Made by a program: the position numbers and the translations under genes
Assembly: GCA_025526935.1 (NCBI GenBank)
Contig: JAHLKD010000032.1
Span: 248,001 to 312,000, forward strand
Direction of reading: 5' to 3'
Origin: Cladochytrium replicatum
Taxonomy: Eukaryota > Chytridiomycota > Chytridiomycetes > Cladochytriales > Cladochytriaceae
DNA: 64,000 nt
In this document: positions 10,680 through 54,298 of the stretch, piece by piece
How the letters are laid out: each line of letters opens with the position of its first letter
Position numbering within the stretch: position 1 is the stretch's first letter
The notes under the pieces: generated by a model
What the model was told of the DNA's origin: nothing
Database searches by the model: none
The model's input: the letters and a program-made list of their open reading frames with translations, nothing else

Positions 10680-12113
10680 TCAAGTCGTCATTTTGCGGCA
10701 CTTTTTCCTCTGATGTGCCCGCATCGCATCGATTCGAGAGAAACCTACACCACAAGCAAGGCATACGTGGGGTTTGCAGTCTTTCGGCAAATGCGTACTG
10801 GCGTGACGATCCAGATCCTGCTTCCTCAAGAACGATTTGTTGCACTTATCGCAAACAAGTGTTCGCCCCTTCTCATGGTGAAGTCGAACGTGAGCACGAA
10901 GGTTAGGGAGCGTCTTGAAAGTGCGGCGCCCGGAGTGACTCTCGGGGCATATCGGACATGTGAACGCGCCGTCCTCATTGCGGACTGCGTTTGTACAAAT
11001 CGAGGTTGTGTAGAGGAACTGACGAGGTGAGTGCATAGGCCCACCGGACGAAGGTGGGGATGTGGAGCTCGAGGCCGGGGATTTGGGTGACGGAGGTGCA
11101 GAGTCAGCAACCTCAGATTCTGTCTCTTCGGGGGTGAAGGCTTCAGACTTGACAGATACGGCCGTGTTCTCAATATGTGGTGCCGAGACCATTGGGACTG
11201 AGGGTGAAGAGGTAAAAACTGAAGGATCGAGCGTGTCCGCTGCGGGAGTTCTGGTGTTGATCAGATTGTGGATGATGTCGGCGATTGTGTCGTAGGTCGG
11301 ATCGAGGGAGGCGGGATATGCATCAGGAGTTTCCGGCCGGGAGTGGTTCTGTGTCGTGCACGTCTCTGCCGGAGATGGCATAAATGAGAACGAAGGAGTG
11401 GGAAAAGTGAAATCAAGTGCAGGCGTTGGAATAGACATGATGAAAGGCGAAGGCGGAGGAACCGCAAAAGGGACGGCCGGAGTGGTTCCATATAGCGCAT
11501 ATCCAAATGCAGCGGGTGTTATGCTGACTGATGGGATCAGCAGAGTGGTGCCGGGGCTTCCAAGCGGAGTTGCAATCGGGAAGGGGGTGTGTACTGTTGA
11601 GTTCGCCTCGGAAGCGTCTCCCGAACCAAGGTTGAATGTGAACATTGTGTGAGTGAGCGGAGATAGATGCGGCAGTGCATGTGGGGCGGGATTTATAGAC
11701 CCGTTCAAAGGGGTCTGAGCGGGAGTTGGCGTGCTGACCTGCAGCTGCGGCGAGAATGCAGGTGATAAAATCAGTGGACTGTAACACCCATTTGGATCTC
11801 GAAGAGTTTCAAAAGAAGACGGCATAAGGGAGCTTGGTTGGTGTGAGATGGCTGGCTGCACATTTGGCGGTTGTGGGGTAGGAGGATGCGAGCCAACTCC
11901 GGCAGAATTTAACAGCGCCGATTGCTGGAAGTAGTCAGTCGGAATCCAAGTGTCAAGAACGGGCTCGCTTGTGGGTGCAGGCGTTGTGATAAGCGTGGGC
12001 ACCATCGCCGAGAACACTTCAGTTTCAGCGCCAGGCGTGAATAGATAGAGAGAGTTGGAGAGTGCAGTTAACAGATCAGACGACTGGGCGTCTTCAGGAA
12101 TCGCGGAAGCCAT
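10680..12113 (-). CDS. C2H2 zinc-finger transcription factor
   Basis: Single exon of 477 aa, ATG at 12113. The first about 370 residues are low complexity, rich in Pro, Ser and Thr, with no charged clusters, as in fungal activation domains. The DNA-binding part lies in the last about 105 residues. Finger 1 begins CPIC and has a long loop before HVRLHH; finger 2 is CDKC with HASTH; finger 3 is CLAC with a closing H/C pair (HQRKKC), so it is C2HC-like. This is a nuclear sequence-specific regulator by family; the target is unknown. The 0.9-kb gap upstream would hold its promoter. Confidence 0.88.
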   Translation of the reverse strand: MASAIPEDAQSSDLLTALSNSLYLFTPGAETEVFSAMVPTLITTPAPTSEPVLDTWIPTDYFQQSALLNSAGVGSHPPTPQPPNVQPAISHQPSSLMPSSFETLRDPNGCYSPLILSPAFSPQLQVSTPTPAQTPLNGSINPAPHALPHLSPLTHTMFTFNLGSGDASEANSTVHTPFPIATPLGSPGTTLLIPSVSITPAAFGYALYGTTPAVPFAVPPPSPFIMSIPTPALDFTFPTPSFSFMPSPAETCTTQNHSRPETPDAYPASLDPTYDTIADIIHNLINTRTPAADTLDPSVFTSSPSVPMVSAPHIENTAVSVKSEAFTPEETESEVADSAPPSPKSPASSSTSPPSSGGPMHSPRQFLYTTSICTNAVRNEDGAFTCPICPESHSGRRTFKTLPNLRAHVRLHHEKGRTLVCDKCNKSFLRKQDLDRHASTHLPKDCKPHVCLACGVGFSRIDAMRAHQRKKCRKMTT

Positions 12114-12996
12114 CAGGGATGAGCCTTGGATGAAATCTCTTGAAGATGGGGGGTGCCGAAGATTTCAAATTGTGACGGTCAGGCAGGTGGTAAAAGTGAA
12201 AGGACCAACAGGGAAGGGATAGCCTCTTAAAATGGCAGGGCTGCTGGGCGTGATTTGTTAAGATCTACAGCAAATGGCAGTGCAGAACTGCCTCATGTGG
12301 CGGTGAGGATTTGAAATTTGATGCAGGACACCAGGGGATCACAGTGACACAGATCAGTGCCTTACTGGTAATATGAATCTCAAGACAGTATGCTCTGCTT
12401 ATTAGTAGCACATATTGCCCTTTTAAAGCTCGTTGGCTGATAACAGTCCGATCTCGTCACAACATACTTGCAGAATTCGCCCACTGTGGCAAGTGCGGCC
12501 ACTGTGGCAAATGGCGCGGTAGCAATCATAAAGGCTTGTGCTCGTGCGGTGAATGGCAGTGCAAATGCTACGCAGAATACCTTTGGGCACGTGATACGCA
12601 AATTTGAGTATTCCACTGCTTCCACAGAGCGCCACATTCACAATCGCACCAACCAAAACCCTACAGCACAATGCCGAAACATGCGTGAAGAAAAAACGAA
12701 AATTCAAATGATGACATATTTTTTCGGGCGTTACAAAAGCACCGATCCGATCTTCAAAGAATCAGCCGTCAGAAAACTCCCGATCCGTTTTCAGAAGTAG
12801 TGCTTCGGCGATCAACAAAAATTAGATTCGTGATTGGATTTCTTGATATTGTTTTGCTGATTGCAAGAGTGCATTTCAAGCAATTTACTAGCAGTGGGCC
12901 GCTCAATGCCCTATGTTTTCACAGTATCACGCTGTAAATATCAGCCTTTAAAGCTATTTTCTAGCCCTTTCTTGTATCTTCAATTTTCCCAAAAGC
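12114..12996. other. Divergent promoter region
   Basis: Head-to-head gap between the zinc-finger gene (minus) and the Cys-rich membrane protein (plus). At 12481-12512 a short imperfect repeat (actgtggcaa-type units) is visible. No gene was recognised. Confidence 0.35.
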
Positions 12997-24905: not shown

Positions 24906-27900
24906 TCACACATAATGGTCGTCAGGCAAAACCACAACCCCCTCGTGGTCAACCCTACATTCATCATCCTCCGACAAACCTTCCACAAGCGCCACATACA
25001 CAAAACCTTCAAAGCTCCTCGGCCCACACACATATACCGCCCTCCCGCCTTCCATATCCTCTCTTCTCCACCCCGCGAACTCCTTCACTACCCAGCCCAC
25101 AATCGTCCCGTCCAACCGTTTTCCAAACACAACGTGCGTGCCCGGCGCAATGGCGCTCTCACCGCTCCATTCCGCTCCGTTATTCTCAACGTAACCGGCA
25201 CACATACCCTGCAGCCTGCGCAACGGGTCTCCACCGATCTCCGAGACTGATTTCTTGCGGGCGAGGCGCCTGAGGATCCACAGGAGTTCGAGGCCGAGCT
25301 GGGTTTGTACGTGTGTGGTTGCGAGACGCAGTGTGCGATCTTGACGTGGTTGGGGTACGCAAGCGCAGCCCCACGTATCAGGTCGAGACCGAAGGCTTCG
25401 ACGGCGTAGCGGATCGAGTGCACGACGACGATGGTTGGGATCTTTACGGCGTCGGATTTAGATTTCACGGTGCGGGGGTAGGTCACAGGCAATGGGAAAA
25501 CCCCTTCAGCGCCGGTGGTCAGGTTTTTTCCGTGCGCCCAGCCGTCAAAGGAGTGCCATTTGGCGACGACGTGTTCGCCGGGTTTCAGCGCTAACTCGTC
25601 GTGGCTTGCAGGAAGGTATAGTGTGTGCACGAGAAGTGGAACGTCGACTGGGAGGAAAAGGTATTGGATAATGTGTAGGGGGGGGGTGAGACCAGATCCG
25701 GCGGTGAAGAAGAGGTACTTGTGGTACCACGTCGGTGGGGCTGTGAGAGAGGCGTTGACGGTGGGGCTAGAGCCAATCATCGAGGTCACGATGCGGACAT
25801 TAGGACAGCCTGAGGAACCGTACTCTGGTGGGCTGCTTGAACCAAGGCCGTTTGGCATGGGCGGGATACTAGGGGCTCCGCCCATGTTTGGCAAAAGGGG
25901 CATCGATGGTACTCCTGTAGGCTTCAAGTTAGCGCGTGAAATAATCGACGTCCCGAACGGTGCGCGGATACGAATCTGTCTTGAGCCAGTCTTGAGGTTG
26001 CAAAGGAACGGGCTCAACGCGCCGCTTGATTTGAATTTGATGTACACTTCGAAGCAAGCTGGTGATCCACTGAGCGGGGTGAAGTATCTCGACACCCACT
26101 GCATGCCACTCTTCCCCCTATCAGCATTCTTTACCGTCACACGGGCCTGGATCTCTACACACTCTCCGGGAAGGAACGGTTTTAGATCGTCGCTCCTTGC
26201 CGCAGCCCGGCTTGGGTCAGACGGATACAGCATCACAAACTTGAGCCTGTGAACGACACCTGCGACGGTCGACATCTTTGCAGTAACCGCACAGCCTTCG
26301 TTTAGCAACGTGTTTTCGACGAGCGCGTAGCGTCGGTACTCGGTCGGGTCCAGCCCGCCTTTTGCAGCAGTGCCGTCCAAGAGCGCAGATTTACTGGGTA
26401 TAAGCTGACCCACCAAGAATGTACTGAGTTTCTGGATGGCTGTTTTGGTATGTACGTGTGGCCGGCGTGCGCGGAGGAGGTGTTTAAGTTCACTCTGGGT
26501 GAGCTCGAAGACGTTCTGCTCTTCGTGCGGGGGATTACGGATAACTGGTGACATTGGCATCTGGAATTGTTGTTGTGGGTCCGGATAGAGTATATTCATT
26601 TGGGAATTGAGTTGTTGCTAGTGGGCCAGTGTGTTCGGGCTCATGAGAACTTGTGCAACGGGAACATTAGGGTTGCCCGTGGAAGGTAGTCGACGGCGCA
26701 TTCCAGAAGCTTCGTTGAAAGACTCGGGGCGAGGAGGCTTGATCATAAATTTGGTCGCATCGTATCCAGCTTCTTTGAAGAAGTCGTTGGTGACATCGGT
26801 GCCTGCCACGGAGTACAACACCAGTTGACCTCCGGGACTATGCAAAAACCAAGTTAGACGAACAAGCTCGCCTCGAAGAAAGCCGCACTACTTACTGTGA
26901 CTTAACCCACGTATCAACGCTGTACACAAACCTCCTGTTTGCAACCACTAGGACCTTCCTAAATAAATAAGTAAATCAGGGCCTCTATCCTGTCCAACGC
27001 TCTATACTCACCAATTCTTGGTCGCTTCAGCGATATCACTCCATGTATACGACCTCAGATTCTCTGGGCTCTTCACCGAAGAATGACTCATCAGCTCAGC
27101 AATCGCTTTGTCTCCAGCATCCAATTTCTCATATCCCTTATTCTTATTCTTTCCTCCCATCGATTTCGCAAGCGCATCGACACGACCGTAACCCTTCTTG
27201 TCCATGGATCCGTATCCAAAGCCATTGTAGTCGCCAACCTGTCTTCTCCTTCCAGACTTTGAACCGAATCGATTCGCAATCCACTGCTCGATTACGTTGA
27301 GCTCGTTGCGGTTGCGTTGATGGATGAACTCCGATACGCCGAAGCCCCCAATAAGAAGGGTCACGACGACAAGGGTAAAGTACCATACTTCGCGTCCTCG
27401 CGTTTCCTGCAGAGGGTAGAGCACCTCGACGCCAACTGCGACTTGCGCAAACATAGCCAGAACTGTGAGCCAGCCCTGATTATGACCAGACGTAAGTTGG
27501 AGGAATTGCGGACATGTTTGGCATACATACCAACAATTTGTGTGCGAAACGGATCGCCGTACGGTGTCTCTCAATAAGTTCCGATCGGATGGAGGAGATA
27601 TTGAGGACCCCAAGAAGAGCTTGGACTATCAGAAGACCGATCAAGACCAATCCGAGAATGGCATGCGGTTGTGCCGCGTCGATACCGATAAAAATATCTT
27701 GTTCGTAAGGCATCGACACAAAAATTATCACGGTAAAAACGACAACGAGGAGTAGAGCTAAAGAAACTGTAACAACGTGCACGACAATCCAGATTGACCA
27801 GTGCTTAAAAACAAACCAGATGAGAACGCTAGTACCAGAAATTTTTCCTTTGCCGACCTTCAGGTAGCGGGAGAAGTACGAAGCGGTAGTGAAGAGCATC

Positions 27901-28935
27901 AAAGTCACTGTGAAACCTACACCATGGATCTTTTTCTCCTGCAGCGAAATGACATCGAGACGGTTGAGTGGGGACGCTTCATCTGTGATGAGAGTGGTCA
28001 TGACAAAGCGGAAATATCGATCGTCGTGGAAACCCATCCATCCGTTCAGAGAAGTTTTGGGAGCCCGTGGGTTGTACGCAAACAGAACATTTTGAGCTCC
28101 ACCAAAGACAATCAAATTTGTGATCTTGAACTCTGCAATCATAGTGCCATTTTCAATCACCGAGACGCCTGGTATCATGGTGAAACTATCGGTGGATTTA
28201 ATCCTAACCTATAAAGTCAGAGTCAAGCATTGAATCGCCAAAGCCCATGCCCATCCAGGCGGCACTTGTTGATACGATCTTTTCAGCAGTTAGTTTCCCT
28301 TTGGCAGTTGGGTCAAGGACAAGACACAGGTGGAGGTTAACACGCAGTGGACTATCTCCAGATAAGCGAGAGCCCGATTGGCGACGGGTAAGCTTTCTTT
28401 TGCGTCAGTCGTCTATGTCATCACTACTATCATCATCTTCATCGGCAACTTCGAGCGCACGCTCGTCATCATCGTCATCATCATAATCTTCATCGTCTGT
28501 CGAAGGAGAGGGCCGAGTGGGGGAATCATCTAGACGAACGTTATTGTTGCCGCTCCCAGAAACGCCCGGGATGGTAGACACCTGAATTGGCCTTGCCGAT
28601 GTCGTTGTTCTCGACGTGGAAGTTGTAGTAATCACACCACGGGCGGATGTTCTGGATATTGCTGGTGCTGTTGTGGTAGTTCTACTCCCTGAACGAACTG
28701 TAGATGTTGACGCTTTCCGTTCATTTTCAGGTAGTTTGTCATCGAGTTGGACTACTCGGTCTACAGTCCAATACAGACGGAATGCCCCAATTTTGTCAAG
28801 AACATCGACGTTTTTGAAGTCGGCGAGCAGAATGGACCTAAGCGATGGAGGAGCTGTATTCTGGATAGCTAGGGAAGGCAGGAAAAGAGCCGCAAGGGCC
28901 AGAAAGTGGGGTATTGAGAGCATCCAGCGTTGCAT
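24906..28935 (-). pseudogene. Decayed copy of the DOMON-b561-b5-reductase gene
   Basis: Same domain order and exon layout as the intact copy at 29470-33764, from the signal peptide (ATG 28935) to the final DDHYV. Four lesions break it. A TGA at 28405-28407 sits where the intact copy has Arg, just before the RRQ of the DOMON core. A deletion of roughly 150 bp near 28205-28215 removes the end of exon 1, the intron and the start of exon 2 and shifts the frame. A TAG at 26618-26620 lies after the cytochrome b5 domain. Two extra bases at about 25265-25270 (ggcgcc against ggcc) shift the reductase C-terminus. The exon 2 donor also reads GTCGGC. Even so, protein similarity stays high elsewhere, so decay is recent or partial fragments may be expressed. 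One lesion could be a sequence error; four are unlikely to be. Confidence 0.85.
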
Positions 28936-29469: not shown

Positions 29470-32400
29470 TCACACATAATGGTCATCCGGCAACACCACA
29501 ACTTCCTCATGGTCAACCCTACACTCATCATCCTCCGCCAAACCCTCCACAAGCGCCTCATACACGAATCCTTCAAAGCTCCTCGGCCCACACACGTATA
29601 CCGCCCTCCCCACGTCCACGTCCTCTCTTCTCCACCCCGCAAACTCCTTCACCGTCCACCCGACAATCGACGCTTCCAAACGCCTTCCAAACACAACGTG
29701 CGTGCCAGGTGCAAGGTCGCTCTCACCCGTCCATTCCGCTCCGTTATTCTCCACATAGCCCGCACACATGCCCTGAAGCCTGCGCAGCGGGTCTCCGCCC
29801 ACATCCCCAACGGATTTCTTACGGACGAGGCCAGAGGATCCAGAGGAGTTCGAGGTCGAGCTGGGTTTGTACGTGTGCGGTTGCGAGACGCAGTGTGCGA
29901 TCTTGACGTGGTTGGGGTACGCAAGCGCAGCCCCACGGATCAGGTCGAGACCGAAGGCTTCGACGGCGTACCGGATCGAGTGCAAGACGACGACGGTGGG
30001 GATCTTTGCGGCGTCGGATTTGGATTTCACGGTACGGGGGTAGGTCACAGGCAACGGGAAGACGCCTTCAGCGCCGGTGGCAAGGTTCCTTCCGTGCGCC
30101 CAGCCGTCAAGAGAGTGCCATTTGGCAACGACGTGTTCACCTGGTTTCAGCGCAATCTCGTCCTGGCTGGTGGGGAAGTAAGCGGTGTGCACGAGGAGGG
30201 GAACGTCCAGAGGAAGGAATAGGTATTGGATGATGTGGAGCGCGGGGGTGAGACCAGATCCGGCGGTGAAGAAGAGGTACTTGCGGTACCACGTCGGAGG
30301 CGCTGTGAGAGAGGCGTTGGAGGAGACGGTGGAGTTGGAGCCAATCATCGATGTCACGATGCGGACATTAGGACGGCCAGAATAGCCGGACTCTGATGTG
30401 GTGGTGGATCCGAAGCCGGTGGGCATGGGCGGGATGCCGCCGGCGGTTCCGACCGTGCTCGGCATAGGCGGCATCGACGGCACGCCTGAAGGCTTGACGT
30501 TTGCCCTCGAAATGATCGACGTCCCGAACGGCGCTCGGATACGGATCTGTCGTGATCCAGGCTTGAGGTTGCACAGGAACGGGCTCAACGCACCGCTCGA
30601 CTTGAATTTGATGTACACCTCAAAGCAAGCCGGCGACCCGCTCAGGGGGGTGAAGTACCTTGAGACCCACTGCATGCTGCTCTTCCCAGTGTCAGGGTTT
30701 TTGGCGGACACCCTCGCCTGGATCTCCACACATTCGCCGGGAAGGAACGGTGTCAGATCGTCGTTCCTTGCCGCTGCGCGATTAGGGTCTGAGGGATACA
30801 ACAGCACAAACTTGAGCTTGTGCACCACCCCCGCGACGTTCGATATTTTTGCAGTAGCCGCAGAACCCTCATTCAGCAGCGTGTTCTCGACGAGCGCATA
30901 GCGACGGTACTCGGTGGGGTCCAGCCCGCCCTTCGCCACCATCCCGTCAATGGAACCCGTTTTGCTCTGCACGAGTTGGCCAACGAGGAACGTGCTGAAC
31001 TTCTGGATGGCTGATTTGGTGTGTACGTGCGGGCGACGTGCGCGGAGAAGGTGTTTGAGTTCACCCTCGGTCAATTCAAACACATTCTGCTCTTCGTGGG
31101 GAGAAGGACGTGTCACTGGCGATGTTGGCATATGGAATTGCTGTTGTGGATCTGGGTAGAGTACAGACATTTGCGAGTCGAATTGTTGGTGCATTGCACT
31201 TGGGCTCATGAGAACCTGGGCAACGGGAATGTTCGCGCTGGCAGTGGAAGGCAACCGGCGACGCATTCCAGAGACGTCGCTGAATGATTCAGGACGTGGA
31301 GCCTTGATCATGAAGTCCGTTGCATCGTATCCCGCTTCTTTGAAGAAGTCGTTGGTGACATCAGTGCCTGCCACGGAGTACAAGACCAGTTGACCTCCGG
31401 GACTATAGAGCGATTATGTGAGAAGATATCCGCCATTGAAAACGATACTACTTACTGTGATTTGACCCATGTGTCAACACTGTACACATACTTCCGGTTC
31501 GCAACCACCAGTATTTCCCTTTTGCAAAACAGAAGCATGTTGAGTTTACTTCTACCCCAACTTAAGTTCGCTCTGCACTCACCCATTCTTAGTCGCTTCC
31601 GCAATGTCGGCCCAAGTGTACGACCTCAGGTTCTCTGGGCTCTTCACCAACGCCTGACTCATCAGCTCCGCAATCGCTTTTTCGCCAGGCTGCACAGCTT
31701 CATATCCCCCATTCTTGCCTTTCCCACCCATCGATTTTGCAAGAGCATCGACATGACCGTAACCTTTCTTATCCACGAATCCAAAGTCCCTGTAATCCGC
31801 ACCCTGCTTCTTGTTCCTTGTCAGTGACCCAAAGTGCTTTGCGATCCACTGCTCAACAATGTTGAGGTCGTTGCGGTTGCGTTGGTGGAAGAACTCTGAC
31901 ACGCCGAAGCCGCCGATGAGCAAGGTCATGACCACGAGAGCAAAGTACCACGCTTCGCGGCCGCGGTTCTCCTGGAGAGGGTAAATAACTTCGACGCCGA
32001 CGATGGTCTGCGCGAACATCGTGATGATTGTGAGCCAGCCCTTTGAATTTGATCAGAAAAGACAGGAGAGATGAGGTCAAAGTTACCATGAGCTTGTGCG
32101 CAAGACGAATGACAGTGCGGTGGTTCTCGATAAACTCGAATCGGAGAGAAGAGAGGTTGAGCACGCCAAGGATGGATTGGAGCATCAGTAGGAGTATCAA
32201 AACCAGGCCGAGAATTGTGTGGGGTTGGCCTGCGTCGATGCCTAGGAAGGTGTCCGGCTCGGAAGGCATGTTCACAAAGATCACGATGGTGAAGACAACA
32301 ACGAGGAGCAGAGCGATGGACGCACAAATGACGTGCACGTAAATCCAGATTGACCAGTACTAAGAAGAAGTGTGACTAACGTGTGCAATATATCATGCAT

Positions 32401-33764
32401 TCATAATCCTACCTTTAAGTACCTCGAGAAATACGCTGCTACAGTAAAAAGGAGCAAAGTCACCGCGAAACCAGCACCGTGGACCTTCTTCGCTTGGAGC
32501 GACACAACGTCGATACGGTAAAGCGGGGAAGCTTCATCAGTGATAAGCGTGTTCATCATAAAACGATAATATCTGTCGTCATGGAAGCCCATCCATCCGT
32601 TCAGAGAAGTTTTTGGAGCGCGGGGATTGTAAGCAAAGAGAAGGGACTGAAGTCCATCCTGCACAGTTAGGTTTGTGATCTTGAATTCTGCAATCATGGT
32701 GCCGTTTTCGATCACCGACACGCCTGGTGTCATTGTGAAGCGATCATTGGTGTTCGACGTTTTGGCCTGATTTAATGGCATTAGATTCAATTACATCAAA
32801 AATGTATTCACGTTACCGGAGGCATGTAGTAGTGTGTCGCCACGTAGGATGAGAGTCCAGAGAGTGGTGCAATGACTGCCGAGGATGCCGGTGGATCTTG
32901 GAGGTGTGCAATGACGAATTCGGCGTCCAGCATGTGTTCTCCGAAGCCCATGCCCATCCATGCGGCAGTTGTTGAGACGATCTTTTCGGCAGTAAGTTTT
33001 CCCTTCGCAGTTGGGTCAAGGACGAGGCACAGGTGGAGGCTGACAAGCACGGGTTCGTCACGGGATGAGATTGAGACATTTTGGCGACGTGCTAGCTTAG
33101 ACCTGCGACGGTCGTCTTCGCTGTCATCATCTCTATCGTCGTCGACGTCATCATCGTCACCCCTCCTTCTCCCATCACGGCCACTTCGCTCATCGTCGTC
33201 ATCATCATCATCATTTCTGTCATCGTCGTCATCATCATCGTCATCAATCCTCGGTGGAAGTCTTATGGGAGAGGCCCTAGCAGGGGGCCCCGTTGTTGTT
33301 GTACGAGTAGTGGCGCGGGAAGTGGTAGCACGACGAGTAGTGGTCAGATCTTCAAGACGCACATCGTCGTCGTCATCGTCACCGGGAATACCAGGGATAC
33401 CCGAGACCTGTACAGGACGCGAAGAAGTAGAAGTAGTTGTCGTTCTTGAAGTAGTGGTTGTTGTTGTAACACGATTCGATGTGCGAAGAGACGAGGCACT
33501 TGTTCTGGTTGGAGAAGGCGAAGAAGAGCCAGACGCTGAGTCTTTGTTGTCCCTTGTTGATTCTTTTTCGTCTTCAAGCTCCACGACTCTGTCTACTGTC
33601 CAGTATAGACGGAATGCGCCAAACTTGTCAAGAACATCGACGTTCTTGAACTGTGCGAGCTCGATGGATCTGAAGGAGGGTGGAGCGGTGTTCTGGATAG
33701 CGAGGGAAGGCGTGAGAAGGGCGGAGAGAGCCAGCAGGAGCGATATTGTCAGCAGCATTGTCAT
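29470..33764 (-). CDS. Transmembrane NAD(P)H oxidoreductase: DOMON + cytochrome b561 + cytochrome b5-like + FAD/NAD reductase
   Basis: Six minus-strand exons: 33764-32817, 32766-32413, 32359-32087, 32040-31583, 31518-31456, 31402-29470; 1342 aa. Residues 1-22 are a signal peptide. A DOMON domain starts at FRLYWTVD (about 52). It is interrupted by about 165 residues of Thr/Ser then Asp runs (to about 235), and resumes with LVLDPTAKGK and AAWMGMGFG. Five membrane helices follow at about 411-576, with His near KVHGAG, YVHVIC, GQPHTIL and RLAHKLM, fitting the two haem sites of cytochrome b561. Next comes a cytosolic cytochrome b5-like domain (YTWADIAEA, HPGG at about 699). Last is a ferredoxin/b5-reductase module: RYFTPLS for FAD, APFG, FFTAGSGLTP for nucleotide and VYVCGP. 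Proposed flow: NAD(P)H, FAD, b5, b561, DOMON, outside acceptor. Acceptor and haem binding are inference. Confidence 0.87.
33130..33270 (-). repeat. Asp-codon (GAT/GAC) repeat tract
   Basis: Within the intact oxidoreductase gene, runs of atc/gtc on the plus strand encode Asp stretches of 7-9 residues broken by Arg and Asn. Such triplet tracts are prone to length change; the decayed copy has shorter runs in the same place (about 28440-28490). Confidence 0.8.
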
Positions 33765-38968: not shown

Positions 38969-40764
38969 ATGCTAGATTACTCTGCACGCGAAGAAGCACT
39001 GTCATGCGAAGAATGCACAACCTACGACCTTATCGTCATCGGGGCGGGCCCTCACGCTCTAGCCCTGGTTACTCGCCTTCTTGAGCGCTACCCCAGCTCT
39101 CTCATTTCCGACGATGAGCACGTACGCCTGCACCAGCTCCACACCGGCAAACACCACCGCGATCGTGCAGTCTTGCGCAAAGGCATGCCTGTCTCCGGCC
39201 CCACCAAGACCACTCACCGATCTTACAAGCACGAGCCTGTATCCGCACTCAACCTTAGCGACGGAACCTCCTTGGACAAGCGCGTTCTGGTGATCGACAA
39301 GTTTGGACAGTGGATGGGCCGCTGGGACTCTTCGTTCTCCGCGTACAACATCGAGCACCTCCGCTCGCCCCTCTTTTTCCACATTGACCCCTCTCATGCC
39401 GACGGACTGCGTGCGTTCGCGCACCGCAACGGCCGCTGCGATGAGCTTCAAGATCTTACCCACCTGGTCGACAAGAACTGCAAGCGTTGCAAGAGCGCGA
39501 GGAGCGGGAAGTCCGGCCCGCGCACGAGCAATCTGAACCAGAGGGACCGGGAGCTTTTTTACACGCCCGGGACGGCTTTTGCGAGGAGCTGGTTCGACGG
39601 TACAAGTTGCATGATATGGTCGTGCAGGGGATCTGTACGAGCGTTGACACGGTCGAGACGGACGAGGGGACGGTGTTTAAGGTCGTCTATGAGTGTACGG
39701 ATGCTGAGTGCGCGACATCTGTGACGTTGTATTCGAAGGCGGTGGTCACGGCGATCGGCAACACAAACATTCCTAGGATTCCACCTTTTGTAACAAACAT
39801 CAAGAATCCTTATCCGTCCTCAAGCATTATTCATGCCTACGAGTTTATCGACGACAAGGCAGGAGGGGACGCTGATTCCGCCGATAGTTCCGACAAGGTG
39901 GAAAAGAGCAGGTTGCATAAAATCAAAGCTCCTCAGAATCCCTCTGCACGCACCATTCTCATTGTCGGCGGAGGTCTCACGAGCGCACAGATGGTGGACA
40001 TGGCCATCTCCCGCGGATTCAAGAACGTCGTTCTCGTGATGCGGTCAAAGATAAAGATCCGTCAGTTTGACTTTAGCCTCGACCTGATGGGCCGCAATGC
40101 GTCACGGTGGTATGCGCGCTTCTGGATGGAGGACGAGCCTCGCGCGCGGCTCAGGATGATCAGGACCGAGCGTCGCGGGGGTAGCATCACGCCCGAGTAC
40201 GTCAAGAGGCTCAAGCAGCTTGTCAGTGAAGGTTTTCTCACCATTCGAGAGAATGTAAGCGTTGAATCGTGTGAGTGGGTGAGCAGCTCGGACACCGATG
40301 GGCATCAAGCCGTTGGGGAATGGAGAGTTCAACTGTCGGATTCTCACGAGCCCATGTGCAACATTGCGCAGATTTGGCTAGCGACCGGAGGAGAGTTTAA
40401 CGTCTACAAAGAACCAGTGTACAAAACGATCGTCCGGAAACATCGCGTGGAGATTGTGGAAGGCCTTCCTGTCTTAACAAACGACATGCAGCTGCACAAA
40501 GATCTGCCCTTCTTCGTGATGAGCGGGTACTCTGCACTTGCTGTTGGACCTGTTGCGGCAAACTTGCAGGGCGGGCGAGTTGGTGCAGAGAGGATTGCTG
40601 TGAAGCTGTGGGAGTTGTGGCACACGGAGGGTGAGCTGCGAGGTGAGCCCGTGCAGTCTAGGGGAGACAATGTGCAGCTGGGATCTGAGACAAAGTGGAC
40701 CATGGAGCATGTAACAGCAAACATGTGCAATTACTTTAGTGCGCTGGTTGACGAGGTAGTCTGA
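38969..40764 (+). pseudogene. SidA/FMO-like flavin monooxygenase with a frameshift
   Basis: The frame from ATG 38969 covers the FAD site LIVIGAGPHALALVTRLLE, then MGRWDSSF and LRSPLFFHIDPSHADGLRAF. It goes off frame near 39577-39580. The protein resumes one frame over with CEELVRRYKLHDMV and continues to 40764 through the NADPH site ILIVGGGLTSAQM and the LATGGEFN motif. One extra T in the tttt run would restore a single chain of about 600 aa; no GT-AG intron fits. The family includes ornithine N-hydroxylases and OSGIN-type proteins; substrate unknown. A sequencing error in a homopolymer is as likely as true inactivation, since the rest is well kept. Confidence 0.75.
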
Positions 40765-53018: not shown

Positions 53019-54298
53019 CTACCGCCCAAACAAATTGTTGCGCGCGCACGTCTCATAAGTCAAGAAAATGACCGCAGACGTCGGCGCGCTCCTCGCCATC
53101 GTAATCCCAAAGCCACGGTACAACCCCCGTACACCTTCGGCCCTATACAACTCCCTCATCGCCTGTCCAAAAGTCCTCTTCGCACCTTCCCTCACCCCCT
53201 TTTCAAAAATCTCCTCGGTCTGCATCCGGCTCTTAACAACGTCAGCCGGGAACAGAACACCGTTGAAGGCCATCCCAGCGAGCGCACCGGAGAGCATGAG
53301 CTGCCACGTTGCGAGATCGGCCTTGGATTTCGCGTCGGCGGTCCGAGAGACCATGGCGCGGACGGCGAGTTCGTAGACGCCGAACCATGCGCCCCCGCCG
53401 CCGGATTCGCGGAGGAAAGTACCGAAATGGCCGCGGTACATTCCGAAGAAACCGTCTTTGCGCAGGGTATGGAGGATCACAGAGGCTGGTCCGGTGTAGA
53501 GTCGTGGAGGGTGTGACGAAGGGGCTGTGTAGGAGCGTGTGGATGCGCTGGCGGCGGCGATGGGAGTGGGTTGGATATGTGGGCGGGAGGCGGTGGGGGT
53601 GAATATTGGGGAGGCTTTGGGTGTAGGGTTAGATGCGGCAGGGCGTGTTTGGGAAGCTGAGGTAGCTGCTCCAGCTGATGCTGCTGTGGCATTTGATTGG
53701 GGCTCGGACGGGTGAAGGTGGATGACGTCCTGGACCTGGAGCTTGCACTTCACGAGCTCTACAGGAGTAAGAATGAACGAAACTCCGGCACCGGAAAGCG
53801 AGCCCGCAAGAACAACGTCGGTCATGGATGGGGGCGGTAAGTCTGCTGTTCTAGATGTAGTTCCGTGGCGGAGATAGCGCATGAGGTCCAGCGACGCCCC
53901 GTAGCACATGAATAGGAATGCATTCTCTACGACCGAACCAAAAAGTGGTGTGCTAAGACCCTTGTATAAACCCGAGAAACCTTCCCCTCGCACAGTCTTT
54001 CCGAAACAGTCGATCGCACCATTGAAGAGCAGTCCGCGTCCGTTAGGGCCGACTGGCTGCGTTTGGAGACGCAACTTCACAGTATCGAATGGGAACTAGT
54101 GCGATTGAAGGTGTCTAAGCTTGTATTGCTAAAACCGCCCTTCACAAACTCATACCTCAACAACCTTGCCTGTAACGCCGGCAATCTATTGGAACACAAA
54201 GTTTCAGAAGAGCAGATACAAATCATAACACGAGCAACGCATACCGAGCCGTACGCCAGGTCCTTCAAAGCACTCTCGGTGGTGGAATCGTGTCCCAT
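53019..54298 (-). CDS. Mitochondrial carrier (SLC25 family, ornithine-carrier-like)
   Basis: Exons 54298-54245, 54185-54156 (a 30-nt micro-exon) and 54095-53019; 386 aa. SLC25 carriers move metabolites across the inner mitochondrial membrane. Three carrier signatures are present: FPFDTVKLRLQ, TPVELVKCKLQ and FPADVVKSRMQ, each after a helix, with GFSGLYKGLSTPL, GFFGMYRGHFGT and GVRGLYRGFGITM closing the repeats. The second repeat has an unusual insert of about 80 residues, Ala/Pro/Ser/Thr-rich (about 140-215), after DVIHLHPSEPQ. The N-terminus (LKDLAYGSIAGVTGKVVE) fits the ornithine/basic amino acid group; the substrate is inference. Confidence 0.9.

Follow-up and report, generated by a model that had tools for sequence, protein, structure and literature searches.

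A candidate one-chain DOMON-b561-b5-reductase protein with an inserted SH3 domain in Cladochytrium replicatum

Can a single polypeptide carry electrons from cytosolic NAD(P)H through the membrane to an acceptor outside the cell? This question is raised by a gene, here called gene A, in a stretch of 64,000 nt of the Cladochytrium replicatum genome (GCA_025526935.1, contig JAHLKD010000032.1, 248,001-312,000 of the forward strand). This stretch is the window to which all positions refer, and its contig is called C32 below. The original prediction for the window had proposed such a conduit, built from DOMON, cytochrome b561, cytochrome b5-like and FAD/NAD reductase domains. In our analysis the conserved ligands, the order of the domains and the topology are still best read in this way, but passage of electrons through b5 is doubtful. 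The product of gene A is probably a plasma-membrane NAD(P)H reductase made of one chain and serving an acceptor outside the cell. It would be a CYBDOM-type protein in which a tethered flavoprotein replaces soluble ascorbate.

Gene model and domain order

Gene A lies on the minus strand at 33764-29470 and has six exons encoding 1342 aa. The five introns are 50, 53, 46, 64 and 53 bases long, all with GT-AG borders, and the stop codon lies within 29470-29472. The re-derived model matched the coordinates and the six-exon frame given in the original prediction exactly. The anatomy that it described (signal-like start, DOMON, five-helix b561, b5-like domain, FAD/NAD reductase) was largely right as well, and the observation was confirmed. 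The prediction had missed the SH3 domain, the absence of the second b5 His, the insert of ~160 residues that splits DOMON and a broken tandem copy at about 24906-28935. The features of gene A, in the order of the protein, are:

32817..33764, minus strand: exon 1, with the signal-like start, the first DOMON strand region, the low-complexity insert and DOMON with M278 (gene model, hydropathy)
Residues about 46-65, exon 1: first DOMON strand region
Residues 66-228, exon 1: acidic, Thr-rich low-complexity insert of ~160 residues, splitting DOMON
32413..32766, minus strand: exon 2, with the remaining DOMON and H378, the b561 junction and helix 1 with H412 (model, hydropathy, alignment)
32087..32359, minus strand: exon 3, with b561 helices 2-3 carrying H443 and H481, and the start of helix 4 with H522 (model, hydropathy, Pfam, alignment)
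31583..32040, minus strand: exon 4, with the remaining helix 4, helix 5, a cytosolic linker and the first part of the b5-like domain (model, hydropathy, Pfam)
31456..31518, minus strand: exon 5, the middle of the b5-like domain as far as the HPGG His, H699 (model, Pfam, alignment)
29470..31402, minus strand: exon 6, with the end of the b5-like domain, H-x-H, FAD barrel, Pro-rich linker, NAD lobe with SH3 insert, and stop
31021..31029, minus strand: invariant H-x-H (H824, H826) between b5 and FAD barrel (alignment, 9/9 rows)
30499..30963, minus strand: FAD-binding barrel with R-x-[YF]-[ST] motif, residues about 846-1000
30301..30498, minus strand: Pro-rich linker, not conserved across the family, residues about 1001-1066
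30040..30204, minus strand: SH3 domain, residues about 1099-1153, between the G-x-G-x-x-P turn/helix and the remaining NAD lobe
29473..30039, minus strand: remaining NAD lobe with C-terminal CGP motif

All domain junctions fall inside exons: DOMON/b561 in exon 2, b561/b5 in exon 4 and b5/reductase in exon 6. The b5 domain itself is interrupted by introns 4 and 5, and the codon of the HPGG His is formed only once exon 5 is spliced to exon 6. In L050, an intact paralogue on contig C37, all five introns fall at the residues found in gene A (316, 434, 525, 678 and 699). More distant relatives have other intron positions and the same domain order. On this evidence gene A is a real single gene in a real family.

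Domains of the protein and its relatives

A hydropathy scan, made with no trained predictor, placed a signal-like N-terminus at residues 1-25 and five hydrophobic segments at residues 411-431, 433-470, 472-508, 523-547 and 554-577, with an additional weak hydrophobic stretch within the NAD lobe (1085-1104). As a check on the DOMON and b561 domains, profile searches had been suggested along with the prediction. In the gene A protein both domains stay below the Pfam cut-offs: DOMON gave 13.1 of 32.7 bits and CDH-cyt, on the trimmed part, 16.5 of 27, and B561 was just below its cut-off of 23, with 21.8 bits for the trimmed part and 17.1 for the whole protein. Relatives in the same genome exceed the cut-offs, namely L051 for both DOMON (33.7 against 32.7) and B561 (24.0 against 23) and L059 for B561 (28.8 bits). 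Among the seven DOMON-b561 sequences that were aligned, from 14 membrane-type loci including broken and fragmentary ones, B561 was matched in six and DOMON in four at E up to 0.1 (best 3.6e-11 and 2.1e-8, respectively).

In this alignment the columns of the candidate DOMON haem ligands M278 and H378 are invariant (7/7), as are those of the candidate b561 ligands H412, H443, H481 and H522. With the N-terminus outside, helices 1 and 3 would carry H412 and H481 at their outer ends, and helices 2 and 4 would carry H443 and H522 at their inner ends. The same pattern is given for the b561 family in the available part of PMC10691727, with H1/H3 outside and H2/H4 inside. The ferric-reductase family PF01794 is absent from the 12 Pfam families listed for the gene A protein at E up to 5, a list from which filters drop most weak matches; B561 appears instead.

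Cyt-b5 is the sole Pfam family over its cut-off in the gene A protein taken alone (36.4 bits against 23.7), with a match that stops at profile position 53 of 74. The b5 family profile matches the solved cytochrome b5 2ibj (E 2.9e-7), and HPGG with the first axial His (H699) is kept in all ten aligned family rows.

For the reductase end, FAD_binding_6 and NAD_binding_1 were the best matches. FAD_binding_6 reached 15.2 of 21.1 bits on the last exon of gene A, below the cut-off, and 35.7 bits in L053, above it. NAD_binding_1 passed its cut-off of 22 only in L051 among the relatives scanned (22.9 bits, over the first 18 of 109 positions only), the point at which the SH3 insert starts to interrupt it. 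NAD_binding_6, which with FAD_binding_8 marks the NOX/FRE type of reductase, gave one weak match, in L053 (E 0.24). In NCBIfam, nothing was listed for the last exon of gene A or for L051, and L053 matched components of oxygenase and flavohaem reductases weakly. The motifs are well kept: R-x-[YF]-[ST] is found in 7/9 rows, with Asn for Thr in L053 and Lys for Arg in L056, G-S-G-x-x-P in all nine, and CGP in eight (CGG in L056).

When a profile of nine reductase ends was compared with solved structures, it matched NADH-cytochrome b5 reductases (7rom, E 6.9e-6; 2eix, E 9.3e-6) and also SH3 domains, those of vinexin (2ct3, E 4.3e-10) and of neutrophil cytosol factor 1 (from E 1.9e-7). The reductase and SH3 matches each fall in their own place along the profile. 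In Pfam the SH3 region of the gene A protein stays below the cut-offs (SH3_9 23.0 of 30 bits, E 7e-5; SH3_1 19.6 of 22.9), and L051 exceeds that of SH3_1 (25.5 bits against 22.9). DGW is present in 13 of the 14 gene models, the fourteenth (L063) ending before it; L057 has GYVP in place of G-x-FP, and in the models of L059 and L060 the latter half of the motif is lost, an intron having probably been placed wrongly. A 64-residue SH3 piece was modelled with low confidence (pLDDT 55); its best fold match had E 2.4e-3, with none at 0.001 or better, and all of its top 24 matches were SH3 domains or SH3-containing chains, which we take as supporting evidence only. An SH3 domain sits inside the NAD lobe of the reductase. 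All four domains of the original prediction are upheld, but its list was incomplete, since Pfam and the family profile add SH3 within the reductase.

An intramolecular SH3 ligand is not proposed as a family-wide mechanism, since the family does not conserve the Pro-rich linker and matches to the PxxP consensus are scattered. In L060 the reductase frame is followed, at the 3′ end of the gene, by a long stretch rich in proline, a possible SH3 ligand in that subfamily.

Family members and selection

To see the extent of the family, the genome (50.5 Mb, 198 contigs) was searched with pieces of gene A. This search found gene A and its tandem copy, two loci each on C37, C135, C80 and C41, one each on C67, C22, C93, C74, C76 and C145, and a fragment on C21; together with a more distant locus on C84 the family has about 18 loci. 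In L051 an animal-type haem peroxidase stands ahead of DOMON-b561-b5-reductase, and the peroxidase end, DOMON and the start of b561 share one open frame (An_peroxidase 70.4 bits in the shared frame, 81.2 in the upstream frame). Its sister L052 is laid out alike, and pieces of a peroxidase occupy the corresponding position there. The distant locus on C84 (L001) contains peroxidase, DOMON (70.1 bits, above cut-off), b561-like helices (B561 16.3 bits, below cut-off) and b5 (45.4 bits), in that order.

At L056, L058, L061 and L062 the b5-reductase-SH3 end is present and no DOMON-b561 was found. Upstream of these four loci lie Pro/Gln-rich frames and a frame without Pfam match (two of the four tested), whose membership of the gene is uncertain. 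Conserved upstream of these loci are a stretch containing IDAD...R and another similar to DSRVVLVYIS, without Pfam match at the two loci tested and, by eye only, faintly resembling a TIR-type fold. In a tree of 14 b5-reductase parts these four loci form a group (100/99). A supported split (100/98) places them on the same side as the two peroxidase forms; the root of this tree is for drawing only, and long branches make its deeper joins unsafe. Gene A is thus not a one-off but belongs to a family that includes at least two peroxidase-fused members and four in which no membrane part was found.

The tandem copy of gene A is broken:

24906-28935 (approximate), minus strand: copy B, interrupted by in-frame stops and a frame change and lacking one stretch

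The pair on C37 has a similar order and is the mirror case, the first copy (L049) having at least three frame breaks and the second (L050) being intact. By protein identity and by order, L049 corresponds to A and L050 to B, yet Ks is lower between A and B (0.70) than between A and L049 (0.85), which speaks against a simple history of the C32 and C37 pairs. Twelve of the 18 family loci (within L049-L062) are in pairs on the paired contigs C32/C37, C135/C80, C22/C67 and C76/C145. The main blocks of these contigs are about 80-85% identical in nucleotides, and Ks is 0.85-0.95 in the two pairs of gene-A type, a picture like that of a genome duplicated or hybridised long ago.

Gene A and L050 are 77% identical over 1290 aligned residues, with an overall Ka/Ks of 0.131. 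By block the values were 0.096 for DOMON, 0.108 for b561, 0.042 for b5, 0.048 for the FAD barrel, 0.013 for the first NAD part, 0.057 for SH3 and 0.105 for the C-terminal NAD part, that is, 0.01-0.12 in folded blocks against up to 0.24 in linkers; with Ks about 0.9 or more in every block, these ratios are approximate. The insert in DOMON is 29% identical and saturated, and its flanking parts are about 79-80% identical. The folded domains of gene A are under purifying selection.

Further matches were noted during the genome searches: b561-like ones on C118 and C151, a stand-alone match to B561 on C41 that is stronger (54.2 bits), animal-type peroxidases on C134, C104 and C19, and short matches to the SH3 part on C28, C72 and C7, taken as other SH3 proteins. 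When viral contigs were scanned with the reductase alignment, none of the 67 pattern matches was confirmed as a relative.

Proposed electron path and competing explanations

We infer the following working for the protein. NAD(P)H would reduce FAD in the cytosolic flavin/NAD reductase, and electrons would pass from the flavin to the inner b561 haem (H443/H522), either directly or via a modified b5 haem. From there they would move to the outer haem (H412/H481) and through the DOMON haem (M278/H378) to an acceptor outside, for which Fe/Cu, O2 and LPMOs were considered. The SH3 domain in the NAD lobe would probably control activity or assembly via a proline-rich partner.

A characterised b561/DOMON reductase is HYP1, an Arabidopsis CYBDOM that takes electrons from ascorbate and passes them to Fe(III) and Cu(II), as described in the available part of PMC10784544. 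Its modelled haem ligands, M90/H174, H211/H278 and H245/H314, are of the same kinds as the candidates in gene A; in mutants the outer pair H211/H278 was needed, and changes in the DOMON pair spoiled localisation (PMC10784544, same part). Like gene A, the CYBDOMs (Arabidopsis HYP1/CRR, insect CG8399, human SDR2) have an outside DOMON with Met/His candidates and a b561 with two His pairs on alternating helices. Unlike gene A, HYP1 uses soluble ascorbate, and in the excerpts of the source no fused b5, flavin reductase or SH3 is described for CYBDOMs. If our reading is true, an own NAD(P)H flavoprotein would be another way to power the same conduit.

Several results weigh against this reading. In the gene A protein alone DOMON, b561, FAD and SH3 all stay below the Pfam cut-offs and no NAD-binding family is listed. 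When the DOMON-b561 alignment was compared with solved structures, the match to CDH was weak (E 0.068) and no structure of a b561 came up. An AlphaFold model of exon 6, made with only the two copies in the window, had pLDDT 28.8 and was not used. By eye, the spacing of R515 (H522-7) is like that of the ascorbate-contact Arg of HYP1, so ascorbate could still be the donor. Finally, a second axial b5 His at the usual distance was found in none of the ten aligned family rows. The original prediction was too confident on this point, and the b5 electron step is doubtful because of it. Some His is present elsewhere within 38 residues in 7/10 rows, at offsets that differ between subfamilies; the gene A protein, L050 and L051 have none in that stretch, and in the gene A protein Y724 is near the expected place. 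The b5-like domain may therefore be without haem or have an odd one. We speculate that the H-x-H segment gives b5 its second haem ligand: R-R-x-H-x-H is present in 13/14 gene models (that of L063 ends earlier), and the distant L001 has a similar H-A-H-S stretch.

The fused reductase also resembles known proteins. NADH-cytochrome b5 reductase and its fusions with b5, of which Ncb5or and nitrate reductase are known examples, share with gene A the FAD barrel, the NAD lobe and, in the fusions, b5 adjoining the reductase. They differ in that gene A has the SH3 insert, the H-x-H motif and a membrane part, and lacks the second b5 His. As far as the available part of PMC3591440 goes, DOMON-bearing FREs occur in Naegleria and oomycetes, and Naegleria NADPH oxidase (NOX) homologues carry SH3 inside the NADPH-binding domain. 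These proteins, the closest published analogues, resemble gene A in having SH3 in the NAD(P)H lobe, an outside DOMON and a flavin reductase fused to a membrane haem core. They are unlike it in that their core is a ferric-reductase domain (PF01794) and not b561, SH3 and DOMON are in different proteins, and no b5-like domain is named in the part of the source seen. Similar accessories thus seem to be joined to a different membrane core in gene A, because NOX and FRE proteins use the ferric-reductase domain and no such match is listed for the gene A protein. In the open-licence PMC literature we found neither a DOMON-b561-b5-reductase nor a b561 enzyme with SH3; fungal protein databases and subscription papers were outside this search, so it is no proof of absence.

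A possible but rather unlikely explanation is that the protein is an NADPH-oxidase analogue whose outer side reduces O2 to superoxide or H2O2 under an SH3 switch, with peroxidase-fused relatives using the H2O2 as dual oxidases (DUOX) do. The SH3 in the NAD lobe, the feature reported for Naegleria NOX in the available part of PMC3591440, fits this, as does the peroxidase ahead of DOMON-b561 in L051, with matching pieces in L052, and ahead of DOMON at L001. Like DUOX, L051 and L052 have an animal-type peroxidase ahead of a membrane NAD(P)H enzyme; unlike DUOX, they have another membrane core and a DOMON between peroxidase and membrane, and no EF-hand was matched in the four L051 pieces scanned (two short exons were outside the scan). 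However, gene A itself has no peroxidase, and six-coordination is the normal state of b561 and DOMON haems. Ordinary ferric-reductase-domain candidates are present in the genome as well, with 14 ferric-reductase/NOX-type matches for PF01794 and 15 for PF08030, and the gene A family is thus not a simple NOX replacement. Moreover, the CYBDOM HYP1 acts on metals (available part of PMC10784544).

More broadly, we tentatively raise the idea that transmembrane oxidases driven by NAD(P)H include another class, assembled independently and parallel to the FRD-based NOX/DUOX, with a b561-DOMON core, an SH3-gated NAD lobe, peroxidase-fused 'dual oxidase' forms and a b5 whose second ligand maybe comes from H-x-H. 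The SH3 insert and the peroxidase-fused relatives would then be convergent with NOX/DUOX, so that the regulation of surface formation of reactive oxygen species or of metal reduction could be addressed in a self-contained one-chain enzyme.

It is unlikely that the protein feeds electrons to secreted polysaccharide oxidases (LPMOs). The CDH cytochrome domain is known to feed LPMO, and by weak matches the DOMON of gene A resembles this type of haem domain. The genome contains AA9 (5 matches, 3 contigs) and LPMO_10 (4 matches, 4 contigs). On the other hand, these matches are few, none is on contig C32, and the DOMON of gene A is membrane-tethered, whereas CDH is a secreted protein whose electrons come from a sugar-oxidising flavoprotein.

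We consider it improbable that ascorbate or a similar soluble donor still drives the protein, with the b5/flavin/SH3 end being regulatory or serving another partner. The R515 spacing and the b5 without its second ligand His would be consistent with this, but few blocks are as strongly constrained as the FAD barrel and the first NAD part, and their motifs are kept as described above. The weakest explanation, that two or more genes (a CYBDOM gene and then a b5 reductase gene) were wrongly fused in the gene model, is extremely unlikely and was rejected because of the exon structure, with junctions inside exons, introns 4 and 5 inside b5 and the same order in relatives with other introns.

Other genes were seen in the window. 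About 6 kb from gene A, an open frame at 39445-40761 on the plus strand matches PF13434, L-lysine/L-ornithine monooxygenase, just below its cut-off (20.7 of 21.3 bits); enzymes of this type are used in siderophore making. On the minus strand, 53022-54095 encodes a mitochondrial carrier protein (Mito_carr, E 6.7e-55) and 10683-12164 a C2H2 zinc-finger protein (zf-C2H2, E 3.1e-8).

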